DNA of 26,193 bases from a virus (IMGVR_UViG_3300021961_000551:1-26193), one strand, 5' to 3'. Shown: positions 400-23,116, counted from the stretch's first letter. Numbers and translations are program-made. The notes: generated from the letters alone by a model not told the origin.

Positions 400-1239
400 A
401 TGAATGAATTTGATGCCGCTTGGGATATTTTGAAACGGAGATATACGGACGACGACATAGGGCGTTTGCACCGTGAATTACTTCGACAAAATCAATTTCG
501 ACAAGGCTATATTGACACTTCACAACTTGACTCCAATGACCGAATAAGGTTACAAAACCAACATGTGTTCGCAAATGACGGCGCACACAGATATGGGCCA
601 GGAGGAGGAAAAATAATGGTTGATAGCCATTCCAACCCGATTCCTCCACGCTCTTATGTCCCAGTGGCCCACATCGAAGAAAGCGGCAAAGGCAATATAA
701 GACCGAAACTTGCCCCCCGCTTGTCCTATGGTGAGGACAACCTGTATCAACCCGAAGGCCCAAGTGGAGGCAGTTATCCGATTTATGCCCTTCCTGGCGA
801 GTTTATGGTTGAACCCCGTGGGCAATATGGGAGTTATCGTGATAAAAAAGAGGCTCTCATGTCTCATCCATGGGATAATAAACGCTTCCCAAGACTTGCG
901 GTTCGAGATTCCGCAACCGACCCGTTGGGAGTTGACAAAGCATTGATCAAGGCTGTTCTCAAAGACAAAAAAGAATCTAAACCCTTTCATGGCTACAACC
1001 CAAACCGCCACAGCAAGGAAGGCGGATTGAATGCTAAAGGCCGAGCCAAATTCAAGCGTGAAACGGGTGCAAACCTCAAGCCCCCCGTCACCGAGAAACC
1101 ATCGACTCTCAAACCAGGCTCAAAGAAAGCCAAGCGAAGAAAATCATTCTGCGCTCGCATGTCGGGCGTTAAGGGGCCGACCAGCAAGGGCGGCAAATTG
1201 ACACCGAAAGGTGCGGCACTAAAGAGGTGGAATTGTTGA
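400..1239 (+). CDS. Basic phage-type protein with DUF6321-like C-terminus and N-terminal FDxxW motif
   Basis: A 279-aa protein. The start ATG at 400 sits 4 bases after GAGGTGA, a strong Shine-Dalgarno. Residues 4-8 are F-D-A-A-W, the short motif shared with neighbouring genes. The middle is Gly/Pro-rich without a recognised fold. The last ~75 residues are strongly basic and match by eye a small domain common in marine phage proteins: a GGLNAKGR-type opening, then RETGANLKPPV, RRKSFCARMSGVKGP and a final ALKRWNC. I believe this is filed as DUF6321; its function is unknown and it is often found at the end of phage proteins. Lysine density would suit nucleic-acid contact or packaging in the virion, but that is inference. 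The stop overlaps the TTG start of the next gene (TTGA). Confidence 0.8.
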   Translation: MNEFDAAWDILKRRYTDDDIGRLHRELLRQNQFRQGYIDTSQLDSNDRIRLQNQHVFANDGAHRYGPGGGKIMVDSHSNPIPPRSYVPVAHIEESGKGNIRPKLAPRLSYGEDNLYQPEGPSGGSYPIYALPGEFMVEPRGQYGSYRDKKEALMSHPWDNKRFPRLAVRDSATDPLGVDKALIKAVLKDKKESKPFHGYNPNRHSKEGGLNAKGRAKFKRETGANLKPPVTEKPSTLKPGSKKAKRRKSFCARMSGVKGPTSKGGKLTPKGAALKRWNC

Positions 1240-1547
1240 ACAACAAAAAGGCATTTGAAGACGCATGGCGACAGGTAAAAATCGCTAAGAACGAAGACCC
1301 CCCCCTTCATCAACGAGGGTATGAACAGTCTATGCAAACAGATATGATGCAAAGAATGAAATCATTCATTCAAGAATCAATGTTAAGCGAATTGGCGGCT
1401 CACTTGGAAAGTTTGGAATTGGACTACACCATCGAACAACTGATGGATGAATTCGGATTTGCGCCCTCGGACATTGACAGCAACATTATGAGTCTCATGG
1501 AAGATGTGCGAAACGATTTGGAACAGAAAGTGCGTTTCTTGAAGTGA
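1236..1547 (+). CDS. Small acidic protein with N-terminal FExxW motif
   Basis: A 103-aa protein of unknown function. I chose TTG at 1236 because GAGGTGG (1224-1230) lies 5 bases upstream and the codon overlaps the previous stop as TTGA, a spacing much like that of the gene at 400. A GTG at 1227 is the in-frame alternative. Residues 7-11 are F-E-D-A-W, near the N-terminus as in the genes at 400 and 1715. The remainder (about 40-103) is acidic, predicted helical and coiled-coil-like, with many Leu/Met residues and no cysteines. Position inside the plus-strand cluster suggests a virion or assembly-related role, but nothing in the sequence proves it. Confidence 0.7.
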   Translation: MNNKKAFEDAWRQVKIAKNEDPPLHQRGYEQSMQTDMMQRMKSFIQESMLSELAAHLESLELDYTIEQLMDEFGFAPSDIDSNIMSLMEDVRNDLEQKVRFLK

Positions 1548-1551
1548 TTTC

Positions 1552-1728
1552 ATGGTCGAATTGAAGAAGGACAAGTGTTGCTGTGGAGCAACAAAGGCCA
1601 AACCATGCGAGTGCATGAAGACTGGCGCAACTTGTTCGACTTCGGAACCAAAGTGTGCCTGTTACAAAGCCAAGGATTTGAAGAAATCATTTGAGGCGGG
1701 GTGGAGGAACATTCATGTCGGCATTTGA
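1552..1728 (+). CDS. 58-aa Cys-rich mini-protein with C-terminal FExxW motif
   Basis: A 58-aa reading frame running from the ATG at 1552 (4 bases after the previous stop) to TGA at 1726-1728. It is rich in cysteine: C9, C10, C11, C19, C21, C28, C35 and C37, which could hold one or two zinc ions or form disulfides. Residues 47-51 are F-E-A-G-W, the same short motif seen in four neighbours, here close to the C-terminus. Its last 14 bases overlap the start of the methyltransferase gene, whose Shine-Dalgarno lies inside this frame. Exact tiling between neighbours and the shared motif argue that it is real despite its size. No family recognised. Confidence 0.6.
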   Translation: MVELKKDKCCCGATKAKPCECMKTGATCSTSEPKCACYKAKDLKKSFEAGWRNIHVGI

Positions 1729-2809
1729 AATGGTGTGGGGCGATTTACGAGCCGACATCATTAACAAAGCCGATGCCTTTCGACGCGTTCCTGCATCTCG
1801 CTTTGATGAAATCATGCAGGACTTTCGAGGCCAGCCACAAAACATGATTCAAGGCCCAAAATGGACTGGCGGCAAAAGACAGCCCTATTACATCGGCCCG
1901 TTGCGAAGGGCCATGGCCCTCAACCCCTCAAAGCGTGGGGGGCGAAGACGAATCGTTGAGCCTTTCATGGGTGCTTTGAATGTCTCCGCAAATGTTAATC
2001 CAGGCCAGCGAGCCTTAGTGGGTGATTTTGACGACATGATGCCCGAAGTGTTCAAGCGAATACAGCAGGGCGACATGACTTTGGACATGACACCGTTCCT
2101 ACAAGACGGCAACATCGACCGAAGAACATTCTACGAGGACATCCGAGGCGCAACACCAAAGGGACGCAAAGGGAAGGACTTTGACAGCCGTTTTGAAACG
2201 CTGAAACCCGACTCCTTAAATGACTTCATTCGACGGCAGAAGGAAGGGGGGCTTACCGATCAAGAATTCCGAGACATGATAGAAAGGTTCGCCCAATATC
2301 AGCGCATGGCTTGGAGAGGAGAGCCACGAAGAAGCGGTTTGGGGTATGCAAACATGACCATTAACAATCCATCATTCTCCTTGCCTTCAACTCTTGATTT
2401 GGCTACAAACCAACCAGCATACGCCAACTTTGACATTCACGGTGGCATGGATTACAAGGACTTCTTCAAGTTGCCAATCAACCCCGATGATGACTTCGGG
2501 TTCATTGACCCGCCCTACGCTGGCGGAGAAGGAGCCAACTACGACTTCCCTGTTCCCGACCCAATGGAGGAACACAAAATTTTGGCTGAATTGGTTGGAG
2601 AGTTAGCCGCCGAGGGTATGCCCATCGTCGCCACCAACAACCCAATAGTCGCTCCTCTCTATGAGAAGCATGGGTTCAAAACGCAACTGATGGGCCGTCC
2701 CGACCGATACAGGAATTATGGTGGGGCCGAAACCCTCAAGCCCGAAGCCATCATGCACAACTTGGACGACTTCGATTTCTTGGAAGGGTTTGACGAAATG
2801 AGGTTGTGA
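1715..2809 (+). CDS. D12-class (Dam-like) adenine-specific DNA methyltransferase
   Basis: A 364-aa protein expected to transfer methyl from S-adenosylmethionine to N6 of adenine in DNA. E-P-F-M-G-A-L-N-V at residues 82-90 fits the SAM-binding motif I of D12 enzymes (usually DPFxGxGxV), followed by G-D-F-D near 103 in the place of the usual N-D-x-N. The catalytic D-P-P-Y is at 265-268, with a Gly-rich segment behind it. The long 110-260 insert would be the target-recognition region. ATG 1715 is preferred over TTG 1691 because GGAGG precedes it by 7 bases. Residues 4-8 are F-E-M-V-W, the cluster's shared motif, which is not part of known D12 enzymes. No restriction endonuclease is adjacent, so self-marking of viral DNA or evasion of host restriction is the likely role. 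Confidence 0.85.
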   Translation: MSAFEMVWGDLRADIINKADAFRRVPASRFDEIMQDFRGQPQNMIQGPKWTGGKRQPYYIGPLRRAMALNPSKRGGRRRIVEPFMGALNVSANVNPGQRALVGDFDDMMPEVFKRIQQGDMTLDMTPFLQDGNIDRRTFYEDIRGATPKGRKGKDFDSRFETLKPDSLNDFIRRQKEGGLTDQEFRDMIERFAQYQRMAWRGEPRRSGLGYANMTINNPSFSLPSTLDLATNQPAYANFDIHGGMDYKDFFKLPINPDDDFGFIDPPYAGGEGANYDFPVPDPMEEHKILAELVGELAAEGMPIVATNNPIVAPLYEKHGFKTQLMGRPDRYRNYGGAETLKPEAIMHNLDDFDFLEGFDEMRL

Positions 2810-2811
2810 AC

Positions 2812-3450
2812 ATGGTCTTTGGTCGTCGTCCTCAAAACCCTTTCATGAATCCTCCATCAGCCGAGGCTTTCAACCCCTACATGGAAAGCCAAGGTGAAGA
2901 GGAAATCCCCGAAGTCAAGACGAAGGATATGGACAATGACCCTTGCTGTGAAGAAGCACGAATGAAATTCCGTGAGGCATTAAGGAAACATTTTGGAAGG
3001 TCATCATGGGGGGACATTGACTCTATAATTGAAGGTTCATGCGAAGAGTTACAACGAGAATTAGAAAGTTGGATTAGCCAAAATTGGAATAGAGAAGAGG
3101 ACAAAGATAAACACGGCATCACTTTGCATGAGGATTTGTTGCGTATTCAAAACGAATGGGATGCGTGTTCGTCCGAATCGTTTGAAGGTGTTTTCACCGC
3201 TTCATCAGATCCATTTGAAATGGCATGGGGCATGATGGTCAAGGGCGAATTCCGTGGCTATTCCCCAAACCGCAACATCAGTGAACGCCCATACCGACAA
3301 GCCAAAGCAAAGACATGGCAACAAAGCAAGAAGGTTCAGCGAGGTCGAACACAAAAGCGATACCAGCGCAACAAGACGAGAGGAAACATTCGTCCACAGC
3401 AAAGACGGCAACTGGGCGCAGGTGGACGACGCTTTTCAACCAAGCGTTAA
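2812..3450 (+). CDS. Acidic/basic two-part protein with internal FExxW motif
   Basis: A 212-aa protein of unknown function. ATG 2812 lies 7 bases after GAGGT; a GTG at 2806 overlapping the previous stop is the alternative. The N-terminal ~130 residues are acidic and helical, with several cysteines and tryptophans. Residues 135-139 are F-E-M-A-W, the shared motif, followed by a short Gly/Tyr/Pro/Asn segment. The last ~60 residues are very rich in Arg, Lys and Gln without acidic residues, as in nucleic-acid-binding tails. The 20 bases around the motif (3212-3231) are almost identical to those at 1722-1741 in the methyltransferase gene. It ends in a tail-to-tail overlap of 15 bases with the minus-strand exonuclease-like gene. 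Confidence 0.75.
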   Translation: MVFGRRPQNPFMNPPSAEAFNPYMESQGEEEIPEVKTKDMDNDPCCEEARMKFREALRKHFGRSSWGDIDSIIEGSCEELQRELESWISQNWNREEDKDKHGITLHEDLLRIQNEWDACSSESFEGVFTASSDPFEMAWGMMVKGEFRGYSPNRNISERPYRQAKAKTWQQSKKVQRGRTQKRYQRNKTRGNIRPQQRRQLGAGGRRFSTKR

Positions 3451-4113: not shown

Positions 4114-5565
4114 TCAATGGTCAAGAGCAACAAACGATTTCTTCCCTGTTTGATAACGGGTGAACACGCCACCGTCCACCATTTTGTTCAAACGGCGTTC
4201 TGCTGTGCGCTCGGCCACGCCTTCCAAGGTGGCGTATGCTTTCTGCAAATCGGTTTTTGACACGACCTCTCGGTTGGCTCTCTTGTCCACCATTTTTTTG
4301 CATTTGTTGTAAGCCTTCTTCCATGAGGAAATCGCCATTTCACGCTTCTTTCCTTCCTTGTAGTCCTGCTTTTGCTCAAGCCAAATGGTGAGGTTGTGAA
4401 GGTTGTCGTAGATGATTTCTGTTGCCATCATCACATGATCGGCAGTGATAACCTTTTGCCGCATGGTTGCCGCTATGATGTTTGAGAAAATGATGGTATA
4501 ATTCTCCACATTCGGAATGAATGTCATGGCGGTTTCACGAATGCTCTCATTTTGAATGCCCTTTACGAGCGCATAATAGTCGTCCACGGCGTTCAACAGG
4601 GCCGCATGATAATTCGGCCCCACCGAGAACAATTCGTGGGCGTGGTTAATGGCGGTGTCCTCCCGTTCCGCATCGGATAATTCGTTCCATTCTTCTAAAG
4701 TGATTCCTGCCGCATCTAACATCCTGTCACGCACCTCGGACTGAATCTCAAGCAGGAACCCGCCCAAGTCCTCATAACTCCAAAGAGCATCGGGGACAGG
4801 GACATAAACGCCACCCATGCGGTGTTCACTGGTCGATTGTCGCTGTTCAATCCCAACATCATTTTGAAATAGGAATACACGCTGAAAGAAACCCTTCTCA
4901 AGAACATGGTGCATGATGTCTTTCGGCGGGAATGTAGTAGCCCAAAGGGAGATGCCCGATGGTGTTCGGACTGAACCTCCGACTAAGTGCTTCACGAGAA
5001 CATTCGTGGCTGAACCAATCGGGGCCATGGCCTGTTGCAGATACAGAATTTTGTCGCTGAAATATGCCTTGGAGTCGTTGAGCAGAACGCTTCCCTCGTC
5101 GAACAGAAGTGTCTTGTAGCCGTTCAAAATGCCAGGCACAGTCTCGTATTCAACCTCTTTCGTAGGCTTTCCATCATCGTCATAGACCACCTTCTCAATG
5201 ACTGTCCCGATCAACTTAGCGTCGGAACCAGCACTGAATTGTTCTCCTTCAATGCCACACGACTTGAGCAACTTCTCGGTGAATTCGTAGGCAATCGACT
5301 TACCTGTTCGGGACTGTTGAATCCAATACACATGGACTCGGCAATCAATGTGCGCCCCGTGGATGGGGATTCTCATGTAAGGGGCAAGGACTTGACCGCA
5401 GACGAAGAAATACGAAAGGAGGCCTGCGTATTCGTTGAAGAATGACACTGTGTTGAAACGCTCAATGTAGTTACGCAGGAATTTGCTTCCGTCCCACGGT
5501 GCGGTGACCAAGGAATAATCGTTCCACTTGCGGCCACCCGCATTCGTTGTCGGTTTCAACATCAT
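4114..5565 (-). CDS. P-loop ATPase with C-terminal winged helix, candidate replicative helicase
   Basis: A 483-aa protein. The Walker A motif is Q-S-R-T-G-K-S at 84-90, lacking the usual first glycine. Walker B is L-L-F-D-E at 153-157. A G-F-F-Q-R-V-F-L-F segment further on could supply the arginine used in ATP hydrolysis between subunits. The last ~60 residues read as a winged-helix domain (helix, TAERRLNKMV recognition-like helix, then a YQTGKKSFVAL wing). This arrangement suits an MCM-like or DUF3987-like DNA helicase; I cannot tell which. It starts at ATG 5565 in an ATGATGA overlap with the upstream methyltransferase stop, and a TATA-like box at 5598-5610 could give it its own promoter. 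The context with primase, nucleases and the exonuclease-like gene supports a replication role. Confidence 0.65.
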   Translation of the reverse strand: MMLKPTTNAGGRKWNDYSLVTAPWDGSKFLRNYIERFNTVSFFNEYAGLLSYFFVCGQVLAPYMRIPIHGAHIDCRVHVYWIQQSRTGKSIAYEFTEKLLKSCGIEGEQFSAGSDAKLIGTVIEKVVYDDDGKPTKEVEYETVPGILNGYKTLLFDEGSVLLNDSKAYFSDKILYLQQAMAPIGSATNVLVKHLVGGSVRTPSGISLWATTFPPKDIMHHVLEKGFFQRVFLFQNDVGIEQRQSTSEHRMGGVYVPVPDALWSYEDLGGFLLEIQSEVRDRMLDAAGITLEEWNELSDAEREDTAINHAHELFSVGPNYHAALLNAVDDYYALVKGIQNESIRETAMTFIPNVENYTIIFSNIIAATMRQKVITADHVMMATEIIYDNLHNLTIWLEQKQDYKEGKKREMAISSWKKAYNKCKKMVDKRANREVVSKTDLQKAYATLEGVAERTAERRLNKMVDGGVFTRYQTGKKSFVALDH

Positions 5566-21179: not shown

Positions 21180-21479
21180 TCACCGCCAATTGACGGAGTT
21201 ATCGGGGTTTAGCGACAGGTCTTTTGTGAACACATCTCCTTGAAGGCCTACGAAAATCCACAGTCTGTTGTCGTATGAACCAGCCACCCCTTGCACCTTA
21301 ACTGCGCCCAAGTCCATGAAAGAGGGGGACTTGGAAAGGATGTTTGCGATTTGTCCCATCGTGGCTCCATGCCTTGAGTTGTCATTGACATAATCAAGAA
21401 TCGCTGTGGTCGTCAACGGCTCGTCGTCGTTTTTGAGAAGTGATTCAACGATTTTCGCCGTAATAACACGCGTCCTCAT
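21180..21479 (-). CDS. Small winged-helix-like DNA-binding protein
   Basis: A 99-aa protein. ATG 21479 overlaps the chaperonin stop by one base (TGATG). Residues 1-25 form a helix (I-V-E-S-L-L-K-N), T-T-T-A-I-L-D-Y-V (23-31) a second, then T-M-G-Q-I-A-N-I-L-S-K-S-P (40-52) a turn and recognition helix, and R-L-W-I-F-V a wing strand. This layout is typical of small archaeal winged-helix proteins. It resembles the protein at 19182-19442. Co-translation with the chaperonin suggests either a regulator of this block or simply a shared promoter. Confidence 0.6.
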   Translation of the reverse strand: MRTRVITAKIVESLLKNDDEPLTTTAILDYVNDNSRHGATMGQIANILSKSPSFMDLGAVKVQGVAGSYDNRLWIFVGLQGDVFTKDLSLNPDNSVNWR

Positions 21480-23089
21480 CAGCCCATCCCCTGCATTGGG
21501 GAGGGGTTTTCGGCTTTCATCATTATCACATCGTCGATTCGTAGAATCATGACCGCCGCTTCGGTTGCGCTCTTGAGGGCTTGAACAACCACTTCTTTCG
21601 GTTCGACCAAGCGAACAGTGATTGCGTCCACCGTAGGTGGGCCGCCGACTTCCCCATCCGAAGGAATGCGAATCGCTTCCTGCCAGCCGCCTGCGTTGTG
21701 CTGTGCGATCAAATCAAGGGCGACATCCACAGGGTCAAGACCTGCGTTCTCACCGATGGTTTGAGGAATCGACAGCATAGCCTCACCGAATTCTGCGATT
21801 GCCATGCTCGTCCGACTTCCGATGCCTTGAGACAACTCGGACAACTTCTTCGCAATCTCTACATGGGTCGCTCCACCGCCCACGGTGTATTCGTTTTTCT
21901 GCGTGGTGAGCCACAGCACACCCAACGCATCATCCAACGCTCGCTCAATCTCGGCGGCGACATGGGGGGTTGAACCCATGGTGATGATTGAAACAGGCGT
22001 GTGAACGCCACTGGCTTTGTGACAGGGCTTCACAGTGATGAACGGGTTGTCAAATTCCGTATTGACCCTGCAAATCGCAAGGCCCATGTCCTCTTTCTTC
22101 AAATCATTCAAGTCCGAAACCATGCTTGAACCCGTGGCTTTGCACAGTGCGTCAAGGTCGGAGCGAACCACCTTCTCAACAACCAAAATGTTGTTTCGAC
22201 GCAGATAATGAATTGCCAAATCGTCAACGCCCTTCTGCACGAACACTGCTGATACCTTCAAGTCCACCAATTTTTGAACCATGTCCTTGATTGCGTTCTC
22301 TTCTTCTTCCAAGAATGCGGCCACTTGATCGGGATTGGTGATTTGCACCTGCGCTTCCATCGCGCCCTTCTTCGCTTCAAGAGCGCAGGAGAGAATGGCG
22401 ACTGGCCCCTCGGCCAAGTCGGGGAGGCGTGGGTGAGCCTTGTCCTTCTCAACGGCCACGCCCTCAAACAACCAAGTGTCCTCAACGCTTCCACCAGTCA
22501 AGGTGAGGATGCGAATGTCCTCCAAGTTGCCTGCGGCGTTCACTGCATCCACACACAGCGTTGCCAGCAAGTCTCGTGACGATTCTGCCGATTTGCCCGT
22601 CAGTGAAGTGGACGCGATGTGCAACATCGGTGCGCTGTTAATTTCTTTCTTGGTCTTCTCGCTCACTTCATCAACGACAGCCAAGGCCGCTTGAAGTCCG
22701 ATTTGAAAACCACTGCAAATGGTGGATGGGTGGATGCCTTTCTCAAGAAGTCCTTCGGCACGACGCAACAACTCGCTGGCGATAACCACAGCAGAAGTCG
22801 TGCCATCGTAGCAACGACTCTCCTGCGTCTGTGCCACGGCCACGACCATTTTTGCGGCGGGGTGTTCGATGCCAATCTCACGAAGGATGGTCGCACCGTC
22901 ATTGGTGACCACGACTTGCCCCGTGTTGTCCACCAGCATTTTGTCCATGCCCTTCGGCCCAAGCGTTGAGCGCACAGCATCACCAACGGCCTTTGCCGCG
23001 CTGATGTTGTTTGACTGTGCGTTGCGCCCTCGCTTCTGTTCTGTTCCTTCCTGCATGATGAAAATCGGTTGTCCGTTGTGGGCCATCAT
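21479..23089 (-). CDS. Group II chaperonin (thermosome subunit)
   Basis: A 536-aa ATP-driven folding chaperonin. Its family forms double rings with a built-in lid. Diagnostic motifs: G-Q-P-I-F-I near the start, [11 protein letters not shown] (41-51, nucleotide loop), [11 protein letters not shown] (62-72, catalytic Asp), Y-D-G-T-T-S-A-V-V (94-102), [12 protein letters not shown] near residue 410 and [10 protein letters not shown] near 470. Usual GDGTT is YDGTT here, with Asp kept but Gly replaced by Tyr. The C-terminal tail is short (M-Q-G-M-G instead of a long GGM run). ATG 23089 or 23086 fits family N-termini; TTG 23101 is possible. A virus-borne copy could fold virion proteins or replace host subunits. 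Confidence 0.95.
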
Positions 23090-23116
23090 GTGTTGTCCCA
23101 AAACGGGGCGTGTTTA

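Follow-up and report, generated by a model that had tools for sequence, protein, structure and literature searches.

Why would neighbouring viral genes whose products are otherwise unrelated share one short peptide? This question is raised by IMGVR_UViG_3300021961_000551:1-26193, a 26,193-nucleotide stretch of viral DNA (the window) in which five consecutive proteins contain the motif F-[DE]-x-x-W. A sequence-only reading had proposed that the motif is a docking tag for a common partner. We found that F-[DE]-x-x-W is the core of a 12-residue tag with the consensus M-T-A-F-D-x-A-W-x-[LIV]-[VLM]-K, and that this tag is restricted to the magrovirus group, viruses of Poseidoniales archaea. With a probability of roughly 65%, and by analogy with phage T4, we read the tag as a capsid-targeting sequence that would load exchangeable proteins encoded among the virion genes into the prohead, a T4-like solution reached independently. 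On its unrelated carriers, the tag would probably serve as an address label that brings them, including potential host-modifying enzymes, into the particle.

The five copies in the window (FDAAW, FEDAW, FEAGW, FEMVW and FEMAW) lie in five consecutive open reading frames (ORFs) on the plus strand (Table 1), three near the N-terminus (residues 4, 7 and 4), one near the C-terminus (47/58) and one internally (135/212); no F[DE]xxW is present in any minus-strand ORF of the window of at least 40 amino acids. When we shuffled the five carriers, a mean of 0.097 motifs was obtained, and none of 20,000 shuffles yielded five motifs or placed a motif in all five proteins. We then turned to a set of 20 related records. 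A profile trained on two genomes and applied to 17 other records identified 129 tags, compared with 0 in shuffled and 1 in reversed proteins, far above the shuffled expectation. All 20 records carry the tag, at 2 to 22 copies per record; the records are related, so that counts across genomes are not independent, while counts within a genome (up to 22 vs about 0) are unaffected by this. The window shuffles and the held-out profile together rule out a chance origin of the motif.

Though real, the five-residue motif was drawn too narrowly, as the conserved unit extends to a lysine four residues after the tryptophan. Of 291 N-terminal copies, 289 retain K, 283 retain W and 276 retain A, with conservation ending right after K; these copies were selected by the profile, which biases the exact percentages upward. 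Synonymous codons are used freely at the conserved residues (F as TTT in 171 copies and TTC in 120, K as AAA in 158 and AAG in 131, L as any of six codons), and selection therefore acts on the peptide and not on the DNA. Most copies start at a start codon, as might be expected of a nucleic-acid signal for ribosome binding, translation start or recombination, but this free codon choice refutes such a reading for most copies and about 30% of copies are internal or C-terminal, leaving it a close to negligible probability. The tag is also strongly amphipathic, with a helical hydrophobic moment of 0.53 vs 0.32 in untagged N-termini, and is predicted to form a short helix outside the cargo domain; in two structure models this helix comprises residues 3-12 and 5-14, ahead of the matched domain.

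The carriers themselves are diverse. Across all loci, we collected 558 unique carriers, which form about 209 groups when the tag is masked, and single large genomes encode up to 18 unrelated tagged families. With gene starts set mechanically by the longest ORF, F falls within the first 10 residues in 383 of the 558 carriers, while 165 copies are internal and 10 C-terminal. Some internal copies sit at apparent fusion junctions of two tagged proteins (for example, L161:12147-13526), and one protein of 690 amino acids (L190:7408-9480, minus strand) has four copies of the tag. The motif is kept in homologues, once at an altered position: the protein at G001 19396 has its tag at residue 40, whereas its homologue at G003 42553 is without that copy and has one at residue 109. 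In G001 and G003, the methyltransferase ends in a module consisting of a tag and a basic tail (3205-3447 in the window), and in G042 (L096) a C5-methyltransferase-like protein begins with this module; being found at different ends of different proteins, the module therefore moves between proteins. Common ancestry of whole genes, already thought unlikely from the sequence alone, is excluded by the roughly 209 masked groups and the unrelated folds. The long head-to-tail arrays and the occurrence of some families as 2 to 3 members per genome could be taken to mean that the carriers are diverged paralogues and the tag the remnant of a common N-terminal domain, but the masked groups, the differing folds (ADP-ribosyltransferase (ART), kinase-like, D12 methyltransferase and DUF6321) and tags that may be N-terminal, internal or C-terminal, and that in one case changed place between homologues, make this very improbable.

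To place these proteins in a viral context, we examined the relatives of the window. Its gene content fits a fragment of a magrovirus-type tailed virus, on the basis of synteny and capsid links, a group II chaperonin, an ERCC4 nuclease and the opposed strands of replication and virion genes; the magrovirus layout and the Poseidoniales hosts have been described (PMC10160649, PMC12999244). Homologues of the window's methyltransferase were found in 3 IMG/VR records at 61% identity, and these records are syntenic with the window across most of its genes, with G001 and G003 among the relatives; re-scanning with a profile of the methyltransferase added no further relatives. The window proper contains no capsid gene, and the capsid evidence comes from syntenic relatives. 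G003 (45 kb) extends into a structural module with terminase (TerL), portal, S78 protease, HK97-type major capsid protein (MCP) and tape measure. Its MCP is Druskaviridae-like and shares 31% identity with its counterparts in the haloviruses HVTV-1 and HCTV-1; IMG/VR contains 139 relatives of this protein, several of them in 90-108 kb records. The HK97-type morphogenesis module and the replication module lie on opposite strands, as in the Magrovirales layout (PMC12999244).

Tagged genes are found almost exclusively with the virion genes: 195 of 988 ORFs on the virion-gene strand are tagged vs 5 of 556 on the opposite one (Fisher p 4e-34). The carriers form two arrays, with runs of up to 8 consecutive ORFs, one beside the structural module, between it and the replication module, and one after the tail-fibre genes; the window occupies such a location. 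None of 120 core morphogenesis proteins tested (MCP, protease, portal, terminase, tape measure and two others) is tagged, and the tag therefore marks cargo rather than parts of the shell.

Next, we characterized what the tag is attached to. Pfam and PHROGs gave few matches among the carriers, and PADLOC gave no match for 120 carriers. In 47 carriers, an H-G-T motif resembling that of ARTs follows shortly past the tag (for example, MTAFDQAWGLLKAPYHGTTS); Pfam matches to these proteins are sub-threshold only, yet they fall repeatedly on ART families at the same place. An AlphaFold2 (AF2) model of one of them (L106:5815-6441, pLDDT 81) matches KptA/Tpt1 with a Z of 9.4 over 87 residues, nearly all top rows being ARTs, and the modelled protein thus has an ART fold with the H-G-T strand. 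A 12-member carrier family (A4) conserves the kinase motifs VVK, DRxxxN and FDxD, and the Foldseek matches listed for its model are essentially all kinases (best E 3.8e-05, to RIO2), with a Z of only 6.3; we read its fold as putatively protein-kinase-like, with moderate confidence. The tag is also found on D12 methyltransferases, on a C5-type methyltransferase recognized by a weak match, and on DUF6321, GP88 and zinc-ribbon proteins. A GNAT-like cargo suspected from sequence in a 17-member family was dropped, as its Pfam support was weak.

These cargo types bear on the possibility that the tag attaches late proteins to a viral component that is not in the capsid interior and loads nothing into the head; the tail, the tail-fibre base, terminase, the virus-encoded chaperonin and an intracellular assembly site are the candidates. 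One array does lie directly after the tail-fibre genes, and a chaperonin is encoded in the window and its relatives (in the window, a group II chaperonin or thermosome at 21479-23101 on the minus strand, Cpn60_TCP1 E 1e-135, with homologues in other magrovirus records). The cargo, however, resembles host-modifying enzymes and not tail parts, and no core tail or head protein that we tested is tagged, so we regard a partner of this kind as unlikely.

We also determined how widely the tag occurs. Its strict DNA form matched 88 stretches in IMG/VR viral contigs, and in 68 of the 80 loci from this strict scan there is also an untagged protein with relatives in the magrovirus set; the remaining 12 are nearly all very short pieces. 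Neither the strict nor a looser tag pattern matched anything in 84,980 bacterial and archaeal species, and a query of the tag with the first residues of an ART was likewise unmatched in the GenBank phage collection. We found no mention of the tag sequence in the literature searched, which did not cover PMC11706807 and PMC5434244, where an earlier mention is possible. This range speaks to another explanation, a host-directed signal in which the amphipathic helix binds a host protein or membrane and gathers effectors at one cellular site. The high hydrophobic moment and the effector-like cargo would suit such a signal. Against it, two strict tag patterns are unmatched among those species, with no cellular protein known to have that form; if the carriers were effectors needed early, one would not expect nearly all of them to be encoded on the virion-gene strand; and a membrane helix does not need F, A, W and K to be so nearly invariant. 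We consider a host-directed signal improbable, a little more so than a viral partner outside the capsid, and because of the absence of the strict tag from cellular species a host factor is the less likely partner.

Targeting to the capsid, the reading that we prefer, has its model in T4. The capsid-targeting sequence (CTS) of T4 comprises about 10 N-terminal residues, of which 4 and 7 serve targeting and 8 and 10 processing; it brings the internal proteins that bear it, the ADP-ribosyltransferase Alt among them, into the prohead core (PMC9026906). Alt is packaged in the head and injected (PMC5512222, PMC9026906), and the internal proteins of T4-type phages are highly diverse, with the CTS as their sole common feature (PMC3012670). 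The magrovirus tag is likewise a short tag on diverse proteins, and its layout of F4, W8 and K12 would parallel targeting followed by processing in IPI, IPII, IPIII and Alt; putative ADP-ribosyltransferases and fast-changing effectors among the cargo, a prohead scaffold and serine protease, and placement with virion genes are further points of likeness (PMC3012670, PMC9026906). The analogy is one of layout. The two systems also differ: the magrovirus lineage is archaeal and has an S78-type protease fused to its scaffold; the T4 protease cuts at L/I-x-E, whereas the magrovirus tag ends in lysine; and magroviruses have up to about 20 carriers per genome, with internal and C-terminal copies, whose packaging we infer.

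How could such a tag work? The shared peptide upholds the earlier idea of a docking tag at the level of the tag itself, and docking to a partner would follow from it naturally. Neither outcome that the earlier reading had named as refuting it, a frequency no higher than in shuffled proteins or a loss of the motif in homologues, was observed. An amphipathic helix (F0-A3-W4-[LIV]6/7, closed by lysine) would attach every carrier to a single partner of viral origin in the prohead as it grows. Gene placement and cargo type favour capsid or scaffold as this partner, which would probably be either the scaffold portion of the S78 protease-scaffold fusion or the capsid protein at its inner face. Docking would lead to packaging of the cargo into the particle, perhaps with trimming after the tag K through the maturation protease; the cargo would then be set free in the next cell infected, and its enzymes may there modify host or viral components. 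The fullest version, in which magroviruses independently of T4 use a universal plug-in tag to load host-modifying enzymes (ARTs, kinases, methyltransferases and others), with the F/AW helix docking and the S78 protease removing it after K, we propose tentatively and at somewhat below even odds.

The genes for the supposed protease and shell have features of their own. In 18/18 relatives, as at L010:11444-12829, the S78 prohead protease carries a long, fused C-terminal part that is scaffold-like and has invariant [VI]IK sites in a linker. An invariant GTDLLKAD lies about 40 residues into the MCP (L010:12845-14023 and relatives) and is a candidate maturation cleavage site. Overall, invariant [LIV][LI]K sites are present near the N-terminus of the MCP (DLLK/AD) and, in the protease-scaffold fusion, at the junction and in the linker (TILK/MD, YVIK/Q), positions at which one would expect cleavage. 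These sites resemble the LLK/M or LLK/A end of the tag, where the residue after K is enriched in M and A as it is at the sites.

Several observations weigh against targeting to the capsid. The proposed processing step relies on [LIV][LIV]K strings that are short and common; a general enrichment of them on the virion strand, which would have spoken for cleavage, was looked for and was absent (3.05 there vs 3.87 per 1000 amino acids). The substantial share of copies away from the N-terminus is unlike the T4 CTS, and the 5 tagged ORFs on the other strand run counter to the strand association, although one of them, in the chaperonin, is probably a chance match. The structural half of HVTV-1 has no tag despite its homologous capsid protein, and the mechanism is therefore not evidently ancestral to the whole capsid-protein group. 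Finally, these viruses are uncultured, and docking to a receptor and packaging into particles are proposed from their genes.

Two other systems invite comparison. Encapsulins use cargo-loading peptides, in which a short peptide loads unrelated cargo into an HK97-fold shell; compared by description, they differ in being cellular compartments whose cargo peptides are mostly C-terminal. Polyvalent and MuF- or portal-fused phage effectors include ARTs, methylases and others for which packaging and injection together with the DNA have been predicted (PMC5512222, PMC9503650). Delivery there is by fusion to large or virion proteins, whereas in magroviruses a separate short tag is attached to every small effector.

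The features of the window are listed in Table 1. The assignment of two carriers to DUF6321 and the D12 adenine methyltransferases holds up in Pfam, and carriers 2, 3 and 5 matched nothing in Pfam or PHROGs. In the window, the tag of the Cys-rich protein has lost its terminal K (KSFEAGWRNIHVGI), which is kept in homologues (KSFDFGWSMVKG in L006 and KSFDVGWSLMKR in L008). At 1681-1750, the last 14 bases of this ORF are also the first 14 of the methyltransferase ORF, read in another frame, and two tags are thus found within 50 bases.

Table 1. Tags and tagged proteins in the window (scores are from the position-specific scoring matrix, PSSM)
Feature	Position	Strand	Core motif	Description
Tag 1, MNEFDAAWDILK	400-435	+	FDAAW, 409-423	Extreme N-terminus of the DUF6321 protein; score 28.0
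Carrier 1, 279 aa	400-1239	+		C-terminal basic DUF6321 domain, residues 204-277 (PF19846, E 2e-18); homologues in G001 and G003
Tag 2, KKAFEDAWRQVK	1245-1280	+	FEDAW, 1254-1268	Residues 4-15 of carrier 2; score 23.7
Carrier 2, about 103 aa	1236-1547	+		Start TTG 1236 or GTG 1227; no family match
Tag 3, KKSFEAGWRNIH	1681-1716	+	FEAGW, 1690-1704	Degenerate, close to the C-terminal end of carrier 3; score of the window copy 4.6
Carrier 3, Cys-rich mini-protein, 58 aa	1552-1728	+		63-64% identity to G001 and G003 homologues
Tag 4, MSAFEMVWGDLR	1715-1750	+	FEMVW, 1724-1738	N-terminus of the methyltransferase; R for K, same in homologues; score 18.6
Carrier 4, D12-class adenine methyltransferase, 364 aa	1715-2809	+		PF02086, E 7.2e-06; 63% identity to relatives
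Tag 5, SDPFEMAWGMMVK	3205-3243	+	FEMAW, 3214-3228	Internal in carrier 5, immediately before the basic tail; score 19.6
Carrier 5, 212 aa	2812-3450	+		Tag and K/R-rich tail, about 3205-3447

Elsewhere in the window, a protein of 483 amino acids (4114-5565, minus strand) has 83% identity to its counterpart in G001 and no PHROG or GenBank phage match. Between portal and protease, magroviruses encode a conserved protein of 1114-1169 amino acids without assigned function (L010:8051-11395); HVTV-1 gp115 (L258:8623-12564), 1313 amino acids long and annotated as a zeta toxin, has a similar position.

Magrovirus hosts rank among the most abundant archaea in the surface waters of the ocean, and the accessory proteins of these viruses are nearly all unannotated. 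A recognisable tag would sort such proteins into probable virion cargo and offer a defined entry point to how magroviruses take over their uncultured hosts. It would also give the T4 system a counterpart for comparison, and the short peptide might be used to load chosen proteins into the shell of an archaeal virus.

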